A stretch of 64,000 bases of DNA from Paracidobacterium acidisoli. GTDB lineage: Bacteria > Acidobacteriota > Terriglobia > Terriglobales > Acidobacteriaceae. Every line of letters starts with the position of its first letter. Position 1 is the stretch's first letter. Where the stretch lies: contig NZ_QVQT02000001.1 of the NCBI RefSeq assembly GCF_003428625.2, positions 1 through 64,000 of the forward strand. The letters run 5' to 3'. The notes beneath the pieces are model-generated. The model made no database searches. It saw nothing but the letters and a program-made list of their open reading frames with translations, and had not been told where the DNA came from. Positions 1 to 10,615 of this stretch are shown here, piece after piece. The position numbers and the translations under genes were made by a program.

Positions 1-47
1 CGGCGCGCCTTGCGACGTCAGCTGATCTGACGTCGCAAGGCGCGCCG
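1..47. repeat. Perfect 21-bp inverted repeat with 5-base loop
   Basis: Bases 1-21 and 27-47 are exact reverse complements, separated by CTGAT. Each arm contains GGCGCGCC and GACGTC. The repeat begins at the very first base, so it may extend further left. The methyltransferase reading frame passes through it without a stop. It could be a strong hairpin, the end of an inserted element, or an inverted-duplication artefact at a contig end. The sequence alone cannot decide between these. Confidence 0.9.
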
Positions 48-1032
48 TTAAAAATGATGAGGTCGCTAAGGCAGCGATTGTCCCTACAGGTCTATATTTA
101 GTGGCACCCTCTTCACCCGCCGATTTTTCAGAATACAAGTCTCGATATTTAATGCTCACCCGATTTTTGGCATACCACACCAGATGGTCGGTCACATTGG
201 ACAGAGTGGTGCCTGAAAAGCCCGTAGTTTTCGCATAAACGATTGTGCTAACAAAATTGCCGTCACCAAACACCTCGTCCATGACAGCACGAACCCTATG
301 CACATTCTCATCGCCAATCTGTACAAAGATCGAACCTGAGTCCGTCAACAAGTCACGGGCTACTGTGAGACGATCCCTCAGATATGTCAGGTACGAGTTA
401 ATCCCATCGCGCCACGTATCGCGGAATGCCTTTACCTGCTCCGGTTCGCGGGTGATGTGATCTTTACTCCCATCCTTAACATCGCGGCTTGTTGTAGACC
501 ACTGAAAGTTGGAATTGAACTTGATGCCATAGGGCGGGTCAAAGTAGATGCACTGCACCTTGCCGCGCAGGCTTTCCCGTTCCGCCAGCGAAGCCATCAC
601 TTGCAAACTGTCGCCGAGGATCATGCGGTTCGACCAGTGAGCATCGTGCTGATAGAACTCTGTGCGCGCCTCTTCGCTGGGCAGTCCGTTGAAATCCGCG
701 AAGAGATTGAACTGCGATTCGGTAGCAGTCTGCCCGGCCTTCGTCTGCCGCTCCAGGTCGTCGATCAACACCTTGGGGTGGACCTTCTCCTGAATGTAGA
801 GCGGCGGCGCGGGCACCACGAGATCAGACCAGTCCTGCTCGTCCTTGCCGCGCCAAACGAGTTGCGGGTCAAGGTCGCGGTTGCGGCGCTCGTAAGCAAC
901 GCGAATGGGCGAACGATCTTCGGCGCGCATCACCGACTGATATTCGGCGGTGGGGATGTTCCGGCGCGAGGCTTCCTCATGGACCAGCGTTTCGACACTC
1001 TTCTTCGGTTTCGGCTTTGCTGTCTTTGCCAT
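1..1032 (-). CDS. Site-specific DNA adenine methyltransferase, Mod-like (partial, C-terminus outside window)
   Basis: This is the modification subunit of a restriction-modification pair, transferring methyl from SAM to adenine N6. The ATG is at 1032, 9 bases after the stop of the restriction gene, so the two are co-transcribed. The first 344 codons are present. Motif IV, DPPYG, is near residue 165 in the context CIYFDPPYGIKFNSNFQ, as in type III/beta-class enzymes. A stretch LVWYAKN and then KYRDLY and GEEGATKYR follows, as usual for Mod proteins. After that point (plus positions below about 100) the translation no longer resembles Mod and runs into the inverted repeat. The 3' part may therefore be broken by an insertion. 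Family assignment is firm; intactness is not. Confidence 0.85.
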   Translation of the reverse strand, partial: MAKTAKPKPKKSVETLVHEEASRRNIPTAEYQSVMRAEDRSPIRVAYERRNRDLDPQLVWRGKDEQDWSDLVVPAPPLYIQEKVHPKVLIDDLERQTKAGQTATESQFNLFADFNGLPSEEARTEFYQHDAHWSNRMILGDSLQVMASLAERESLRGKVQCIYFDPPYGIKFNSNFQWSTTSRDVKDGSKDHITREPEQVKAFRDTWRDGINSYLTYLRDRLTVARDLLTDSGSIFVQIGDENVHRVRAVMDEVFGDGNFVSTIVYAKTTGFSGTTLSNVTDHLVWYAKNRVSIKYRDLYSEKSAGEEGATKYRPVGTIAALATSSFLTARLATSDQLTSQGAP

Positions 1033-1041
1033 CGTTTGTCT

Positions 1042-4000
1042 CTAGTTCTGTGCGGGCTGCGGTTGGGTAACGGAATCGACCATCTTCTGGAACTCGGTCT
1101 CGATGAGATTGGCGAAGTCCGCGTTCATAGCGAAGACTTCCGTAAACTCGACGAATGCCCACCGCCCAAACTTGCCCGTGTTGTTCACGCCTGGAATCCA
1201 GTAGGTATCCATTGTGATCTTCTTGTCCTTGGCGTCTTCGCGACGGTATCCCTTCACCTCGACAACCAGGTGAAGCAAATCCTCCTCGCCGTGGCCGTCT
1301 TCAATCAGCACGATGAAGTCGGGTCGATAGATACGGCTGTCGAAGCCGTGGCGATACGGAACGTCAAAACCAAGATTGTGATTCTTGACATAGGCACGGA
1401 CGCGCGGATGGTTTTCGGCCACGCGGCAGAACTCTGCCTCCCAATCGCTATCAAGAATGATCCAGTTGATGTGGCAACGGCGCGAGTCCGTCTGCCAGCG
1501 GCTGGTCTTCGATGTCGCAAAGTTGACGTGAGCGGTTGAGCCTTCGGGATTGAAGGGATCGAGCAGCGCCTTGATCGCGGCATGGTCCACCGATTCCGCG
1601 TTAATGGCTGCAGTAATCCGTTCGCAGGCCATGTCCGCCAAATGGCGATAAAGCACCTGAGCAGGATAGGTGTCCCCTCGGCAAATGAGGCAGGTGTCCA
1701 TCCATTCCTTCACAACGCGCTTGAGCTGGCCGAAGAGATGCAGCGGCGGTTCTTCGCCGGGATTGCGCCACTTGGTGTATAGCAGATGCGTGGTGAGCTT
1801 ATACAGGATGGTCGATGGGCGGGTGTCGCGAAGGTGCGAGACGGTGAGGTTGACGCTCTCGCCAACGATGCCCGCGTTCTGCGTCTGCGACGGGCCGGTC
1901 AGCTCAGGCGTAATGGGTAGTATGGAATCCTCGGTGAACTTCGCAGTGAGGCGTTCATTGGGCAACTCGGCACGATAGCCCATGACACGCGGGAAACGGA
2001 TCTCCAGTTTGTCGCGCTCTGGGCGCATGGCCTTCACCTGGATGGTCTGGCGAGGCGGGACAGCCACGACAACAACTGGCTTGGCGGCGAAGTCAAACGG
2101 GATGCCGAGCACGTCGGCATACTCCACGTTGAAGAGACCCTCTTCATTCAAGTCGTAAGACTGGCGGCGGAGAGCACGCCCAATGACCTGCTCACAGAGC
2201 AACTGCGTGCCGAAGGCTCGGACGCCGAGAACATGAGTAACTGTGTTGGCGTCCCAACCTTCCGTGAGCATGGAAACGGAGACGACACAGCGAATGTCGC
2301 TGCCGAGACGGCCTTCCTTGCCGACGGTGTTCATCACTTCGCGTAGGATCGAAACATCGTCGATGTCCTCCACGCTCTCCTGAAGACCGCTGCGTTCGAC
2401 ACGCTCGCGGCGGAACTGCTCGATCTCCGGCGCGGCGACCTTGCGGAATGTGTCATCCAGCGCTTCGCCTGACTCAAGCTGTTCGCTGTCAATCAGCAGC
2501 GTGCGCGGGCGGGCATAGGGAGTGTTGTGTTCGTCGAAGTTACGGAAGAGTTCGAGACGGCCATTCTCCAGTTCTTCAACTCCGTTCTCGTTGGTGCGGA
2601 AGAAGCCGGAGACGTAGTCGTAGACGAGCTTGGAGGTGGACGTGTTGTTGCAAACGATGATGAAGCACGGAGGCACCTTGATGCCCGCATCTTGCCATGT
2701 CTTGTATGTCTTCTCGTAATGCCCGTAAAGTGCGTCAAGCGCTGTGTAGAGTGGCGTCGGCAGGCTCAGGGGGTCGAGCCCCTCTGCCTTGCCACGACCC
2801 TTCTTCGGCATGAGCTTACGGATGTTCTCCCACAGGTTGCGGAAGACAGGAACCTCCGCACCGGGGATATTGTCGGCCACGGGTACGCGCGGCAGCTTGA
2901 CGATGCCGCACTCAATGGCATCCATCAGCGAGAAATCAGACATCACCCACGGGAAGAGCGTGCCTTCTGCATAGCCGGAGCCGCGCAGGAAGAACGGCGT
3001 GGCGGAGAGATCGACGATGCGATTAAGGCCGATTTTGCGTTTGACGGCTTCCAAGCCGTTGATCCAGAGGCGAGCGGCTTCCTTATTGCGCTCGGCCTCT
3101 TCCTTGTCCTCGCGCGAGATGTCTTCCTCGTCTGGCGAGCCGGGCTTCTCCTTATAACAGTGGTGCGCTTCGTCGTTGAGCACCATGATGTTCTTGAGAC
3201 CCATCAAGTCCGGCATGACGCGCTGGAGCATCTGCCCTTCGGTTTCGAGGGTGTTGATGGCATCGCCGTGGCGACCTTCCAGCAGCGCACGGTTTCCCTT
3301 GGAAAGCTCCATGCGCTCACGCAGCTTGAATGCGTGGTAGTTGGTAATGACGATCTTGGCTCGCTTCACATCGTCGAGCATGTCGGGGGGAACCAACTCG
3401 CGGTTGGCGTAATAACTGTCGAGGTCGCTGGGCTGAAGGACGCGCAAGCGGTCCTTGATGGTGAGTCCCGGTGTCACCACAAGAAAACCACGGGTGAAAT
3501 GAGTGCTGCCCGAACGGCGAACTGCGTTGACCGTCTGCCAGGCAATGAGCATCGCCATCACCGTCGTTTTGCCGGCTCCGGTTGCCAGCTTGAGCGCAAG
3601 GCGATTTAAGCCTGAATTCGCATTTGCGTTGGCCGCAGCCAGGTGCTCGACAAACTTCTTCCACGCTGGGCGCTTGGACGCAACTTCCGTGAGCCAGATG
3701 GCAGTTTCGACCGCCTCTACCTGACAAAAGAATGGGCGAATGCCCTCGAACGGATGATGCCTCCAGTGCTGGAGCAGCCGTGCCGTCTCCGGCGTGACCA
3801 GCCAGTCGTTTGGACTGGGAAGACGCCGCCACTCATCGACCTGCTGGCGCAGTTCATTGATGATGGGAATCGTTTCGTATCGCTGGCTGCGCGAGGAAAC
3901 ACCTGTCTCGTCATCGAACTCGATGTCTTCCTGTATAGGAGATTGCTTCTGCTTGCGGGGCTTAGGGATCGGCGTGACAAACTGCGCCGTCCGTCGGGAC

Positions 4001-4137
4001 TCTATAATGCGCTGCGTCGGCTGGCCGTGCTCATCCATCTCCCAATGGTGAGCGGGATAGTCATACGGCGAGTTGAGAATAGGATGCTCGAAGAACCCAT
4101 TTTCCATCGTCAGCGGCTTACCTTCATCGTGGGGCAT
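1042..4137 (-). CDS. Restriction endonuclease subunit, SF2 helicase plus PD-(D/E)XK (type III Res-like, BPTD_3080 family)
   Basis: ATP-dependent restriction subunit of 1031 residues. Walker A ATGAGKT lies at 185-191 and the DEAH box at 322-325 (LNDEAHHCY). The late helicase motif QVIGRALRRQ is present. A C-terminal nuclease site has RPDF near 938-941 and VEVKG near 959-963, fitting PD-(D/E)XK. The N-terminus (ENGFFEHPILNSPY) matches the start of this family; the ATG at 4107 is a reasonable alternative start. It lies upstream of the methyltransferase, the reverse of the usual mod-res order. No frameshift is visible, so this half of the system looks intact. Confidence 0.9.
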   Translation of the reverse strand: MPHDEGKPLTMENGFFEHPILNSPYDYPAHHWEMDEHGQPTQRIIESRRTAQFVTPIPKPRKQKQSPIQEDIEFDDETGVSSRSQRYETIPIINELRQQVDEWRRLPSPNDWLVTPETARLLQHWRHHPFEGIRPFFCQVEAVETAIWLTEVASKRPAWKKFVEHLAAANANANSGLNRLALKLATGAGKTTVMAMLIAWQTVNAVRRSGSTHFTRGFLVVTPGLTIKDRLRVLQPSDLDSYYANRELVPPDMLDDVKRAKIVITNYHAFKLRERMELSKGNRALLEGRHGDAINTLETEGQMLQRVMPDLMGLKNIMVLNDEAHHCYKEKPGSPDEEDISREDKEEAERNKEAARLWINGLEAVKRKIGLNRIVDLSATPFFLRGSGYAEGTLFPWVMSDFSLMDAIECGIVKLPRVPVADNIPGAEVPVFRNLWENIRKLMPKKGRGKAEGLDPLSLPTPLYTALDALYGHYEKTYKTWQDAGIKVPPCFIIVCNNTSTSKLVYDYVSGFFRTNENGVEELENGRLELFRNFDEHNTPYARPRTLLIDSEQLESGEALDDTFRKVAAPEIEQFRRERVERSGLQESVEDIDDVSILREVMNTVGKEGRLGSDIRCVVSVSMLTEGWDANTVTHVLGVRAFGTQLLCEQVIGRALRRQSYDLNEEGLFNVEYADVLGIPFDFAAKPVVVVAVPPRQTIQVKAMRPERDKLEIRFPRVMGYRAELPNERLTAKFTEDSILPITPELTGPSQTQNAGIVGESVNLTVSHLRDTRPSTILYKLTTHLLYTKWRNPGEEPPLHLFGQLKRVVKEWMDTCLICRGDTYPAQVLYRHLADMACERITAAINAESVDHAAIKALLDPFNPEGSTAHVNFATSKTSRWQTDSRRCHINWIILDSDWEAEFCRVAENHPRVRAYVKNHNLGFDVPYRHGFDSRIYRPDFIVLIEDGHGEEDLLHLVVEVKGYRREDAKDKKITMDTYWIPGVNNTGKFGRWAFVEFTEVFAMNADFANLIETEFQKMVDSVTQPQPAQN

Positions 4138-4600: not shown

Positions 4601-5890
4601 CTATGCGGCCTTGGGGGTAGGTTTGGCTGTAGGCGGCGCTGCCTTCTTCGCCTTCTCCTTGGCGGCGAACTCCTGCCGCACTTTGCGACCGATGGCGTCT
4701 GTGTCCACCTTGTAAGCTGCCGCCGCGTCCTTCAGCACAGCGGCGGCGTTGCCGCGTGAGGCCGCAATCAGGACCGTGGACTCCACCAGCACACGGGAAA
4801 GCGTGCTTTCGTCGGCGCGACGAAGGATAGCGGTGAACGCATTCTTGATGCCTCCATCATCCCGTTTCTGCCGGATGCCGTGCTGCCGCGCCAGTGTCTC
4901 GACGTTCCGCTCGTCCATTGTGCTTACCAGCTTCTCGACAAGGAAAAGCAGGTCGCGCTTGAGGAGACGCACAGGCACAGCAGAACCGATGGCGGAGAGA
5001 ACGCGAAGGCCGGTGGTGCTGGCAACGGCTTCCTCGCGGCGGCGCTTGGCTTGCTCGGCCTTCCACGCCCCATCCTCGCGGCTGGTTTGCTGCTTCGGAT
5101 GATGCACCGGACATGCGAGGTTGGCGCACACCTTATGGATGGTGCCTACGTCGTTCCCCTCGGTGATGATGGCGTCCGCAGTGAACTTGCACACCTTGAA
5201 CTCCGGGCGCTTGGCATCGTCCTTGGTCTTCGGCTTCTCGTCCCGGATTGCGGTGTACTTGTTGCGTGGAAGTACCGGACTGCCTTCCTGATGTCCACCG
5301 TAAGACGTGCTGATCTGTACCAGTCCCGGTTGTGCGGCGACGGTGCTGGCGATGTGCGCCTGTACCTTGTTCGCGTAACAGGTTGGGTCCGTACAAGCGT
5401 CCTGCTTCCCGAAGTCGGTAAAGAGTAGCTTGTTGCCTCCGGTACGCTTCGGGCAATCAGCACAGCTTCCCGCTGATGGCACAAGCTGCGCATCGCGTTT
5501 GTTGAACGGCGCGTCCTTCAATACCAGCAGGATGTTGCTATCAATCCAGAACTGAAGGTTGCGGACGGGCAGCAGGACACGCGTGGGCTTCTCCCCGCCG
5601 TTGTAAATCTCCTTGAAGCAGGCTTTGAGCGCGATCTCCTGTTGGTCGACAGGAAGCCGAGCCAGCAACAAGGCATGACCCACGCCGATAGCGTCGGCAT
5701 AGAACGGTTCGACGGCTGTGGGAACAAGATCAATCAGCTTGAGGCGCTGCGCCACGAACGAGGGAGTTTTACCTACCTTCGCGGCGATCTGCTCAATGGT
5801 GTATTTAGGTTCCTCCAAGTCCAGCAGGGCGCGAAATCCCTGCGCCTCCTCCATCGGGTGAATCTCGGCGCGAATCAGGTCCGATCCAGC
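4601..5890 (-). pseudogene. ParB/RepB/Spo0J-family partition protein, N-terminus missing
   Basis: The retained part starts inside the ParB domain at DLIRAEIHPMEEAQGF and continues through the helix-turn-helix (YTIEQIAAKVGKTPSFVAQRLKL in pieces). It then has a cysteine-rich segment (SCADCPKR, DACTDPTCYANK) and a long Lys/Ala-rich C-terminus ending in an intact stop at 4601. The N-terminal ParB/CTPase region that should precede LIRAEIHP is absent. Instead the DNA upstream is the 3' part of a VirB2-type pilin gene in another frame. The frame stays open to an ATG at 5950, but that ATG lies inside the pilin coding sequence. Partition proteins of this type occur on plasmids and integrative conjugative elements. 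Confidence 0.85.
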
Positions 5891-6224
5891 CAACTCCCCA
5901 GCCGAGAACCCCAGCGCCGAAAAGCGCGCCGAAGAGTCCAGGAATTGCATCCTGAAAACGTCCGCTCATCATCCGAATACCGGCGAAGATCAGACCGCCA
6001 AGACAGATGACAGCCCCGGCGTACATGGCGAAAGTTTTGAAGGTTGACATCAGTGTTTGTGCGCCCGAGAAGTCCATCGTTCCCTGCGCGTGAGCTGCGG
6101 TAGCAAATGCCATCGCAAATAGGTAAGGCGCAAACAATCGTGCGAGTTGGTAGGGGTTGGGCTTAGAGACGAATCGTTCCCGTTTCTTTGCAAGCGGGAT
6201 AACGGAGTGGGATATTTGGGGCAT
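5805..6224 (-). pseudogene. VirB2/TrbC-type conjugative pilin fused out of frame to parB DNA
   Basis: The start ATG at 6224 has an excellent GGAGGAG ribosome site 5 bases away. Residues about 25-47 form a signal peptide ending AHAQ. Two hydrophobic segments follow (FAMYAGAVICLGGLIFAGI and the Gly-rich GLFGALFGAGVLGWGVGW), the layout of mature VirB2/TrbC pilins. Immediately after GWIG, near 5876-5890, the DNA becomes parB. The last 20 or so residues (PDSRRDSPDGGG and on) are parB read out of frame. Nearly all of the pilin is therefore present, but with a foreign tail. No other type IV secretion gene is in the window. Confidence 0.8.
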
Positions 6225-6312
6225 TGGCTCCTCCGAACGGCATTGTTTTTGGCCGTCATGTTTCGGAAGGTAATGCCGTCAGAATTTTTCGTCCAAGACT
6301 TCTTATCTATAG

Positions 6313-6335
6313 CGCTATTGCTTTGGTCAATAGCG
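6313..6335. promoter_or_regulatory. Inverted repeat upstream of pilin gene
   Basis: CGCTATTG and CAATAGCG are exact complements around a 7-base spacer, about 90 bases upstream of the pilin start. An operator or 5' leader hairpin is possible. The rest of 6225-6517 shows no gene. Confidence 0.4.
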
Positions 6336-6517
6336 GATTTGCTCGGAGGATTGCCCCCTCATAGGTCTCATCGATTCACACCAAAGCTGCGCCATTGACC
6401 TCCGCTCAATGAGCGACTCGGTGATTTGGCGTCAATCGAACGGAGTCACTCCCGAGAAACGTGTCTCTCGGTATCCACTTGAGTGATGCTGCCAGACGAT
6501 GCGGCAACTCGCTTGGC

Positions 6518-7397
6518 TTAACCCAGTTGGCTTCGGGATTCCCGCTTCGGCGGACGTCGGCCGTCCAAAACCACGTCATCAACGATCTGCGGTGAAATGA
6601 GGTATTGCGGAGCGATCTCTGCAACGATGTGTCGAAATTCGTTCAGGCCCTCCGGCGAGAAGCTCACCCGATCCAAATGGCTGCGTACGACCGACCAGAG
6701 CCGTTTGCCAGCAGAGGGGAAACCAGACTTCGCTACCAGCGTCGGTAAGGATCTCCATAGTCATTGCCTGCTGTGGGTTGGTCTTTATTCCCTTCACAAA
6801 GAGTGGAGCCTCCGATGTCGTCACCGGATCGTTTGGATCGAAGGTGGTTCTAATTTGCCAGTGGAACTCCGCCATCCAGGTGGCTCCCTTCTTGAATTCC
6901 TCTCGCATCTTGGCCAACGTGAAATCGTGGACTTCTGCCTCGCTCAGGCGCCGCACGTTGTCGTATGTGAGCTTGTTCTCCGTATGATCGACGCTCGTGA
7001 TAGTTGCCACCATTGCTTCCGCTAATTCTTGCCCCTGTTCGACGAAGAACTGCGGCGAGCGCACGCGAATCATCTGCATATACGTGAGAAGAAAATCGAG
7101 GTGCTCCTTCCACTCCGCAAAGTCCGTAGCCTTGATCGCCCCGAGAACCGACGGAAATTGGTCCTCCATCGTCTTGAAGGTAACATCCGCGTGCTCTGCT
7201 TCGATTGCATCGTTCGAGAAGTCGTACATACCGATGGCGTGGCAAATCTGCTTGGGTGCTTTTCGCTCCCATTGGTTCCGCCACTTATTCAGGCACCACA
7301 ATGGTCGATCATTCTTGGCGCGGGCCGGATCAATGAAGCCGCGAAGGTATCCTTGCGGAACGTAGTGGTCCTTGCGGCCACGAGGAGGATTGGGCAC
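6518..7397 (-). pseudogene. DUF4238-family protein, frameshifted near its C-terminus
   Basis: The N-terminus has the family signature HYVPQGYLRGF (residues about 11-21) followed by LWCLNKW, and the frame runs in good order to ALVGRTQPFG. In the read frame it continues as non-conserved sequence to a stop at 6579. Shifting by one base at the GGG run (plus 6667-6669) gives sensible sequence, FSPEGLNEFRHIVAEIAPQY and on, to a stop at 6518-6520. I infer a +1 frameshift or a sequencing error. The start is GTG at 7397. Function of the family is unknown. It is divergent from the FRG gene, with 76 bases between the two starts. Confidence 0.75.
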
Positions 7398-7473
7398 GAA
7401 AGAATTCTAAGTCAAAAAACTCCGAGATTGGCAGAGACATGTAGCATTGTCTTTGTCTTTCGGATGCTGGCTC

Positions 7474-8327
7474 ATGAATCAACTGACCGCTAACTCGCTG
7501 AGTACGTATCTGGCCGCAGTAGCCAAGATACGAAAACGCTGGAAGGTGCCCAGGCGAGACGAACTCTGGTTCAGAGCAGAGGACGCCGGACATCGCAAGA
7601 CCCGGCTCCAGCCTGGGCTCTATCGCCCCAGGGAAAGCGGACTCCGCAGATCGGTGAACACGCTACTTGAGGTGGAAAATATGAGGAGTTCCAGCGGTGC
7701 GCTTCTCAGCTTTCGGACGCAAGGCTCACGAGCACCGATTGGGAATGGGATTCCTACTTTTTGATGCAGCATCACGGGGCTCCCACACGCCTTCTGGACT
7801 GGACCGACAGCGCTCTCATCGCCCTTCACTTTGCCATTAGGGATAAGCAGGTCCCCCCTACGGGGGGTGCGATTATTTACGTGCTTGATCCATACTGGCT
7901 GCTCGATCAAATCAATGGCGATGACGAGCTGAAGCGCGCCAAGAAGAGGTGGGAGGAATACGCAGAAAAAGACAGTAGCGTTGAAGCGAGAGACTGGGAC
8001 CGGCTCTACCTCCCCGCCTATGACGAAGATTTCGAAGAAAAGCTGCTGGATACCCCGGCTATCCCAATCCTGTTCGACTCACCTCACGTGACCCGGCGAA
8101 TTGCCGCCCAGCGGAGCCGATTCATGATCTTCGGGACTGATCCACTATGGCTGAGCAGTCGCCTTGGTATGAAAGATTCCCATCTCGTTTCGATCAGTAT
8201 TCCTTCGACCTCGATAAGCCGAATCCGACAGCAGCTTCGTGATGCCGGCGTCACCGAATCCGTGGTTTTTCCTGACCTCGATGGTCTAGGACGGGAATTG
8301 AAACAGATTTGGCGAACTCGCCGGTGA
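7474..8327 (+). pseudogene. FRG-domain protein, single frameshift
   Basis: Two frames together make one FRG protein. The first, from ATG 7474, reads SLSTYLAAVAKI, LWFRAED, LQPGLYRP and LLEVEN. Near 7677-7681 it breaks. The next frame resumes at EEFQRCASQLSD and DWEWDSYFLM, then the hallmark MQHHGAPTRLLDWTDSALIALHF from about 7760. Adding one T after GAAAAT restores LEVENYEEFQ, which is the expected family sequence. The domain is named for Phe-Arg-Gly in its first motif; here it is FRA. FRG proteins are often found in mobile or defence-rich regions, with no established activity known to me. Confidence 0.8.
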
Positions 8328-8491: not shown

Positions 8492-9237
8492 CTATACCAT
8501 CAGTTCCAGCTGAATAGGTTTCAATGGGCGCTGGTGCGTGGGCATCTTGCGCGCGGTCGTCCGCTTAGCTTTGGGAAGATGGCGAAGGAGAATGGAGAGC
8601 GCGATGTGATTTGCGCTCCTGTGATGTACGAATGCAGTGTCGGACGTCCACCGTGCTCCCGCAATTGGCCTGGATGTGAGGTCTGATGCGAGTGCGATTC
8701 TCTCATCGATGAGCGCAAGACCACACCTGCTTTGCACCATCATCTGAATGTCTGCCGGCGTCGCTGCCAGGCACGAAGCTTCTGGCCGAATCCCGATTTC
8801 CAATAACATTTCCATTAGGCGATGGTGTGCAGCAGGATGAGTCTCCGGGTCGCGAAACACTTTCAGCCGACCGGCCAGTTCCGATGGTTGCACCTCCCGG
8901 CTTGACGCCAAGGGATCGTCCGCCCTCATGCAGACTACGAGAGGATCGGATGCGACATGCGATACAACCCAATTCGCTCCGGACACGGGCAGTGGCAGGA
9001 TCGCCGCATCGAGGGACCTTTCTTCCATCCTGTCGAGCAGCTGCACTGGATGACCGCCTGTCATTTGAATCGGACTATCAGGGAAAAGACGGGTATACGC
9101 TTGGCGCAATGATTGCACGGAATCCGGGTTGATAAAGCTTGAAAGACCTACGCGCAGGACGGGTATTTCGCCTCGATCCATCGCGCGAGCTGCGCTTACA
9201 ACCTCATCTCGAAGTTCCAGCGCCTCCTGCGCATAAG
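8492..9237 (-). pseudogene. LysR-family regulator fragment lacking its DNA-binding domain
   Basis: The frame contains a LysR effector-binding domain: VLRVGLSSFINPDSV opens the first strand, and SLDAAILPLP, CGLALIDE and the tail are typical. Upstream of the internal ATG at 9181 the same frame still reads as the LysR linker (YAQEALELRDEVVSAARAM) up to about 9237. There it stops abruptly, with the roughly 60-residue helix-turn-helix missing. The DNA beyond is integrase coding sequence on the other strand. It cannot bind DNA as it stands. Confidence 0.8.
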
Positions 9238-10306
9238 GTGGTACGAGTTCATCTTCGCGGGCAGGCGGGTTCGAGAATCGAGCGAGAGCACTTCAAAGAC
9301 CGTAGCCAAGTCCGCTGAGCAGAAGCGCAAGCGCGAACTCGAAGAGGGATTCAATAACTTCGCGGACAATCGGCGCGAGCGGGTCAGAACCATCGAGGAC
9401 CTTGCGGACGAGTACCTGACTTCATACAAATTGCGAAATCCCCAATCGGCTGTCTTCGCTGAATATGCCATGAATCACGTGTGTTGGATCCTCGGTGGTC
9501 GCATGTTTGTCGATTGCAACGAAGCCGCGGTCACAACGTACCAGAATCATCGGCTCCAGGAAGGCGCGGCCCCGAAAAGCATCAATGAAGAGGTGGAATT
9601 CCTGCTCCGTCTGTTGGGAGACCCAAGCGACCTCCTGCGCGTGAGGCTCCGCAAACGTAAGATGCTCAAGCTCAAGGTAGGCCGCTCAATCGCCAAGGCG
9701 TATACAGCAGAAGAAAAGGAGCGGATGCTCGCCGAAGCGAAGAAGGCGCGCTCTCCTCACATCTTTCCAGCCATCATGCTTGCCCTGAACGCGGGCATGC
9801 GCGACGCCGAGATGAAGAACCTGACCTGGGCGCAGATGGATTTGGCCAAGGGATATCTGACGGTTGGCAAGAGCAAGACGGAAGCTGGCGAAGGTCGGAC
9901 CATCCCTCTGAACACTGCTCTCTCGGAATGCATGGGTGACTACGCCGAATGGTACCGACAAAAGTTCGGCAAGCCCCAACCCCAGTGGTACATCTTCCCC
10001 TTTGGCAAGCCCGTCCCAAGCGATCCGACTCGGCCTGTGACCACCTTGAAGACGCCCTGGAACAACGTCCGAAAAAATGCCAAGGTGGAAGGGCGGTGGC
10101 ACGACAACCGGCACACCCTCATCACGGACCTGGCCGAAAGCGGTGCCGGCGACCAGACCATCATGGACATCGCCGGTCATGTCTCAAAACAGATGCTGAA
10201 GCACTATAGTCACATTCGCATGCAGGCGAAGCGAAACGCTCTGGAAGCGATCGTCAAGAAGCAGGGCGGAGCCGGAACATCGAGAGAAAGAGAAGGAGCT
10301 GAGGGG

Positions 10307-10482
10307 GTCCCCACAAAATCCACCACAGTGGTTGTAGAGAAGCGAAAGGCGGCTCGCCGTAATCCCGTGACTGCATCGGTTCGAAGTTCGATCACTGCGT
10401 CGAATTCGAACGGTGATTACTCAGCAGTGTGCACGGATTCGCAGCGTTTTGAAGGGGTGTCCCCACAAAAGTCCCCACAATC
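10307..10482 (+). repeat. Three GTCCCCACAA direct repeats (putative integrase arm sites)
   Basis: GTCCCCACAAAA occurs at 10307-10318 and 10459-10470, followed at once by GTCCCCACAATC at 10471-10482. The last two are in tandem at 12-base spacing. They sit in the final part of the integrase gene, 58-230 bases from the tRNA end. That is where arm-type binding sites for a tyrosine integrase are expected. Confidence 0.55.
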
Positions 10483-10538
10483 GGTCGTTTCTGAGGTTCA
10501 TCGGGGAGTGAATAGGAGAGCTAAATCTAAGATTCTAA

Positions 10539-10615
<77 letters not shown>

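Follow-up and report, generated by a model that had tools for sequence, protein, structure and literature searches.

The window analysed here is a stretch of 64,000 nucleotides from Paracidobacterium acidisoli. The region between the start of the contig and a tRNA-Asn gene contains a truncated pilin gene joined to a truncated parB gene, an integrase gene, and several cargo genes. The features of this region are as follows:

1–1032, minus strand: cargo, a type III DNA methyltransferase gene that runs off the contig start (PADLOC MTase_III, E 8e-151; Pfam N6_N4_Mtase).
1042–4137, minus strand: cargo, a restriction endonuclease gene of the BPTD_3080 family (type III-like; NCBIfam NF046055, 1339 bits).
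4601–5880, minus strand: the 3' part of parB, encoding HTH_ParB and the C-terminus without ParB_N, and open to the normal stop.
5805–5880, minus strand: the 24-amino acid out-of-frame tail of the pilin reading frame, read from parB DNA; the length of this tail varies in relatives.
5880/5881: the joint, which in the minus-strand reading is pilin TGGATCGG followed by ACCTGATTCG parB.
5881–6224, minus strand: pilin gene (VirB2/TrbC) up to the WIG codons, with the few last native codons and the stop lost.
6225–6360, minus strand: conserved leader of the pilin gene, containing an inverted repeat close to the ribosome site (by eye).
6579–7397, minus strand: cargo, a DUF4238 gene (Pfam).
7447–8327, plus strand: cargo, an FRG-domain/PDC-S15-like gene, broken into two frames.
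8492–9235, minus strand: LysR-type regulator gene lacking ~70 N-terminal residues (the HTH); Pfam finds LysR_substrate only.
9431–10603, plus strand: tyrosine integrase gene (Pfam Phage_integrase), which ends inside the tRNA gene.
10540–10614, minus strand: tRNA-Asn(GTT), the integration site.

The pilin reading frame (5805–6224, minus strand) encodes 139 amino acids and has a GGAGGAG ribosome site ahead of its start (CGTTCGGAGGAGCCAATG). The match of this frame to Pfam TrbC/VirB2 is weak (E 8.5e-5, under the gathering score), while the window pilin shares 88% protein identity over 115 amino acids with the VirB2 of genome G019, whose gene heads an intact VirB operon. Its identity as a pilin rests more firmly on this match than on Pfam. 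Residues 1–115 correspond to pilin and the final 24 amino acids are parB read out of frame. The parB reading frame (4601–5950, minus strand) likewise begins with ~23 amino acids of pilin DNA read out of frame, and Pfam gives HTH_ParB only, whereas the intact homologue has both ParB_N and HTH_ParB. The DNA match to intact pilins ends at 5881 and the match to intact parB genes ends at 5880, placing the joint at 5880/5881. The Pfam domains, the G019 pilin, and the intact ParB thus confirm the proposal of the initial annotation that a VirB2 gene is fused out of frame to a parB lacking its N-terminus, and the joint defined by the ends of DNA homology falls inside the interval of about 5876–5890 suggested there. 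A leader like that at 6225–6360 is also found upstream of a different pilin-like gene family in other acidobacteria (L253–L257), and no Rfam family was matched by the window leader.

The traits of an ICE remnant include the integrase beside the tRNA gene and an intact counterpart, inserted at the same site, that has a relaxase and a T4SS. In this counterpart, from G019, a 54-bp stretch of the tRNA end stands as a direct repeat on either side of the element (C7:701731 and 752830), and the same 54 bp are present at the window tRNA-Asn (10538–10591). A second copy of this att sequence was not found in the genome of the window, where the contig ends at window position 1. The G019 element also has the adjacent LysR gene in common with the window (92% protein identity). 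The G019 LysR is full length, as is that of a relative in G192 that is 94% identical in DNA and lies near a tRNA-Asp. The full-length gene in the G192 relative points to a second rearrangement at window 9181–9431, where the HTH end of LysR is missing and the integrase begins. Between the contig start and the tRNA, the window contains no relaxase, coupling protein, oriT, or T4SS genes. Since transfer genes are absent from the available sequence and the regulator has no DNA-binding domain, the element is probably an immobile cargo island carrying restriction-modification genes, the contig-start side of which lies outside the sequence available.

The segment missing between pilin and parB can be reconstructed from intact relatives, which the initial annotation had proposed to seek in related genomes and which were found both elsewhere in the genome of the window and, in G019, at the same tRNA-Asn. 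The contig of the window itself carries an intact element at 136–164 kb, in which pilin (136265–136479) and parB (163848–164123) have the same order and orientation, are 27.4 kb apart, and lie in an element sharing 74–83% DNA identity with the window in the common parts. The corresponding distance in G019, the second intact relative, is 27.8 kb. The missing segment is therefore ~27 kb here, and it measures 27–46 kb in relatives. It codes for VirB3, VirB4, VirB9, VirB10, VirB6, VirB8, VirB11, an SSB, a RepB-type primase, TrwB, a TrwC (MOB_F) relaxase, ArdC, DUF6908, and the ParB N-terminus. A conserved non-coding block upstream of a trwA-like gene in this segment forms a CGGTGC-TGC-GCACCG hairpin (C1 149441–149640 in the genome of the window, L019), with equivalents present in G019, G366, and G233; judging from its place and shape, this block is likely to be the oriT of the ICE family. 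The collinear copies agree with the single deletion initially proposed, and one deletion of ~27 kb in an ancestral element is well supported by these comparisons. This deletion stripped the conjugation machinery from an integrated mobile element.

The joint is not confined to the window. A family-wide search returned contiguous matches spanning the joint in other genera, and pattern scans combined with inspection identified 15 loci in 11 genomes of four genera of soil Acidobacteria with a base-identical joint, in which pilin TGG-ATH-GG/ is followed by parB GAR-A/AY (the slash marking the breakpoint). Three of these loci are in G153 (dw_441), two each are in G191 (Granulicella S190) and G244 (Edaphobacter lichenicola M8UP22), and one each is in G280 (M8UP30), G217, G351 (RYN_15), G410 (Granulicella L60), G412 (NGEE_A_bin35), G366, G095, and the window. 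The same junction occurs in 14 further loci, including one in a single-contig genome, and so cannot be put down to a single assembly error. The joint is found with two ParB families, which are 38% identical, and at several tRNA sites, and some genomes have both joined and intact copies. It is present in 8 of 49 genomes of the genus coded g35 compared with 3 of 349 others, an enrichment that hints at a host factor. A pattern allowing ~15 bp of slack either way recovered, among true joints, only the exact spacing, with no near misses. No reciprocal joint was found in 398 genomes, no joint was found in viral contigs, and the distal att of the small joined derivatives was not found. A 48-bp parB relic in G021 that seemingly has the same start base looks like a degenerate fragment rather than a joint and was set aside. 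In L070 (Granulicella L60), a further deletion has fused LysR to the last ~25 bp of pilin while the pilin-parB joint is kept, and G192 has a relative that is cut at another place, adjoining an IS66-like fragment.

These results modify the initial reading of the joint as the mark of a lost conjugative element. The deletion itself stands, but it is not private to one genome, and the short repeats that it had been proposed to look for at the joint are absent, with 0 shared bases in closely related intact and joined pairs. Conservation of the pilin-parB arrangement in homologues had been named as grounds for rejecting a deletion, and the arrangement does literally recur; the deletion reading nonetheless holds, since joined copies sit within groups of intact ones and apparently have many origins.

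No repeat is shared by the two breakpoints, the longest direct word within 100 bp being 8 bp and out of register, and the parB point resembles the pilin site no more closely than do hundreds of other positions in the element. A deletion driven by homology is consequently disfavoured. No conserved DNA recognition site was detected at either breakpoint, as the codons vary normally with no conservation beyond that of coding sequence; hairpins there are nothing unusual (z −0.5 to −0.8), and Rfam searches gave nothing convincing. Pilins whose alignments end 2–3 bp short were found to be sequence variants and not insertions. The pilin WIG point is also joined, at the same base, to other partners: in two genomes to trwC at FDHGYAVTSH (G153:C4:4297, L244; G267:C1:360433, L246), with an identical trwC base in both, in G171 to a parB position further on, and in G164 to unrelated DNA. 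Having several partners, the pilin point is a preferred breakpoint in its own right. A second recurrent pilin truncation lies ~153 bp upstream, after the TFK codons (TTYAARAC), in about six loci (L012, L015, L067, L247, L248, and L250, in G031, G192, G217, and G294). At this point the pilin is joined to different DNA in each locus, including a parB C-terminus, an IS66-like fragment, and others, and both halves of the split are present in G031.

Phylogenetic comparisons bear on whether the joint arose once or many times. In a tree of 40 parB sequences, the joined state needs 10 changes, of which 8 are forced by well-supported branches, and a single clade of joined parB genes is rejected (AU p 4e-116). 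A joined clade is likewise rejected on the pilin tree (p 5.5e-5), where the signal is weaker. The second ParB family (~38% identical) contains two joined loci for which one clade is again rejected (p 4e-5), L106 grouping with the intact L144 (G366) and L118 with the intact L159 (G282). Some joined loci can be matched to intact genes on either side of the joint. For example, the joined parB of G244 matches the intact parB of G366 at 60 of 60 bases from the joint and at 95% over 1589 bp, while its upstream side is 88% identical over 1762 bp to the intact G237, a match that ends exactly at the joint. One of the G191 loci (G191a) instead shows an even 84% identity to a single intact ICE of G217, both before and after the joint. 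If one joint had spread, joined loci should be most alike near it. No shared haplotype was found there, and near the joint the joined loci match intact genes as well as they match each other, which favours repeated formation. From these sequence comparisons we infer that the same joint formed independently many times, and repeated, independent site-specific deletion is the best-fitting explanation, one that is probable although far from secure.

The main rival to repeated formation is boundary-limited homologous recombination of a single deletion. According to this explanation, a T4SS-less allele that arose once, long ago, was carried by small mobile derivatives and spread by homologous recombination, while intact-ICE sequence overwrote its flanks time after time, as far as the heterology boundary that the joint forms. 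No new enzyme is required, homologous exchange would stop naturally where homology ends, which is at the joint, and joined and intact copies do occur together within genomes. However, in almost all lineages the replacement would have had to reach to within ~3 bp of the joint on both sides, and the residual haplotype expected among joined loci was not found. The presence of the joint in two ParB families only 38% alike, with the ParB2 pair not forming one clade, and the other partners of the pilin point also count against a single event, which is judged to be unlikely while deserving serious consideration.

Somewhat less likely again are sequence-specific breaks in pilin and in parB or trwC, made by a host defence or homing-type nuclease and followed by end joining. 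The zero homology at the joint fits this possibility, as do the fixed pilin point with its several partners and the second (TFK) pilin point, joined to unrelated DNA in about six loci with both halves retained in G031. No recognition sequence common to the cut points was seen, however, and the target codons vary; furthermore, end joining usually trims ends, yet 15 of 15 joints are exact. It is improbable that the pilin-parB arrangement is a functional, selected fusion, such as a dominant-negative pilin or a truncated ParB repressor. The pilin and parB frames are open in most joined loci with dN/dS of 0.02–0.18, but recent descent from intact genes predicts low dN/dS equally. Pilin and parB are read in different phases, the length of the pilin tail ranges from 20 to 114 amino acids across loci, no start codon is conserved for the truncated ParB, and a stop interrupts the parB frame at the joint wherever the locus has ATA. 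A private deletion by illegitimate recombination, with the other identical joints reflecting coincidence or assembly noise, can be dismissed in the face of 15 base-identical joints and no near misses, even though decaying ICEs commonly suffer deletions and the G192 relative is cut elsewhere, next to an IS66-like fragment.

Anything beyond a recurrent exact deletion is a matter of interpretation. Within the favoured explanation of repeated site-specific deletion, the base-exact joint points to an enzyme acting at defined pilin and parB positions, where DNA would be cut or exchanged, either by site-specific recombination or by cleavage and joining. The leading but unproven candidates for this enzyme are Tn554-like tyrosine recombinases. 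The Tn554-like transposon comprises two tyrosine recombinases and a small DUF6262 protein, and insertions lie within one base of the parB breakpoint in three genomes, at the VE/N codons of parB2 in G206 (L181) and G259 (L197) and with one end seen in G062 (L152). Copies of a 6-bp core, GTNGAA, flank the insertion, as is usual for elements of this kind, and the core stops one base short of the joint. In G259 the transposon also holds a gene for a thioredoxin-like protein as cargo. Relatives of these elements copy a 6-bp footprint from the left of the donor site to the right of the new site (PMC10214605). A Tn554-like element might first move from the pilin site to the parB site, after which two transposon copies would recombine, and excision of the transposon would then leave pilin-GGATHGG-parB. 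Among the pilins examined, none has a transposon at the breakpoint, and no locus was seen in which a transposon separates pilin from parB. The core (GTNGAA) has 6 bp against the 7 that the joint would require. IS110/bridge-RNA systems and serine recombinases were set aside as probably unsuitable, since the two sites lack a common core dinucleotide.

Comparison with known systems places the window element close to, but distinct from, several of them. It resembles decayed ICEs and CIMEs in having a tRNA-linked integrase and an att in common with an intact relative, and in having kept cargo without a relaxase or T4SS; it differs in that the loss has a base-exact boundary common to many lineages. 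The cyanobacterial nifD element undergoes programmed excision from a coding gene at matching direct repeats, restoring the reading frame. A large segment is similarly lost base-exactly from within a gene here, although the frame is broken and there are no repeats. The Tn554, SE, and GInt transposons are comparable in the site-specific insertion of such an element at the parB point, and the constant short piece of pilin would be explained if the core had been copied from the donor's left flank. In contrast to these transposons, the pilin-parB joints hold no transposon and the core would be 6 and not 7 bp; deletion of a 27–46 kb module as a product of such elements was not described in the literature found. 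TrwC has been reported to catalyse site-specific integration (PMC3264647), and the intact element does code for a TrwC (MOB_F) relaxase. Neither breakpoint, however, resembles the likely oriT (by eye), and the deletion removes oriT itself, so a relaxase-termination model was also set aside.

Searches of the literature on acidobacterial ICEs or recurrent ICE deletions found nothing relevant. It is possible, with the balance tilting slightly against it, that an ICE family of Acidobacteria undergoes repeated, base-exact, enzyme-directed loss of its conjugation module, from pilin to parB or occasionally trwC, by a previously undescribed mechanism. ICE decay is usually pictured as random, whereas here one exact, homology-free deletion recurs across genera and ParB families. 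Conjugation modules would then be edited, at conserved positions in their genes, by an uncharacterised recombinase or nuclease; otherwise, a deletion allele must spread unusually cleanly. Both readings bear on how ICEs turn into immobile cargo islands.
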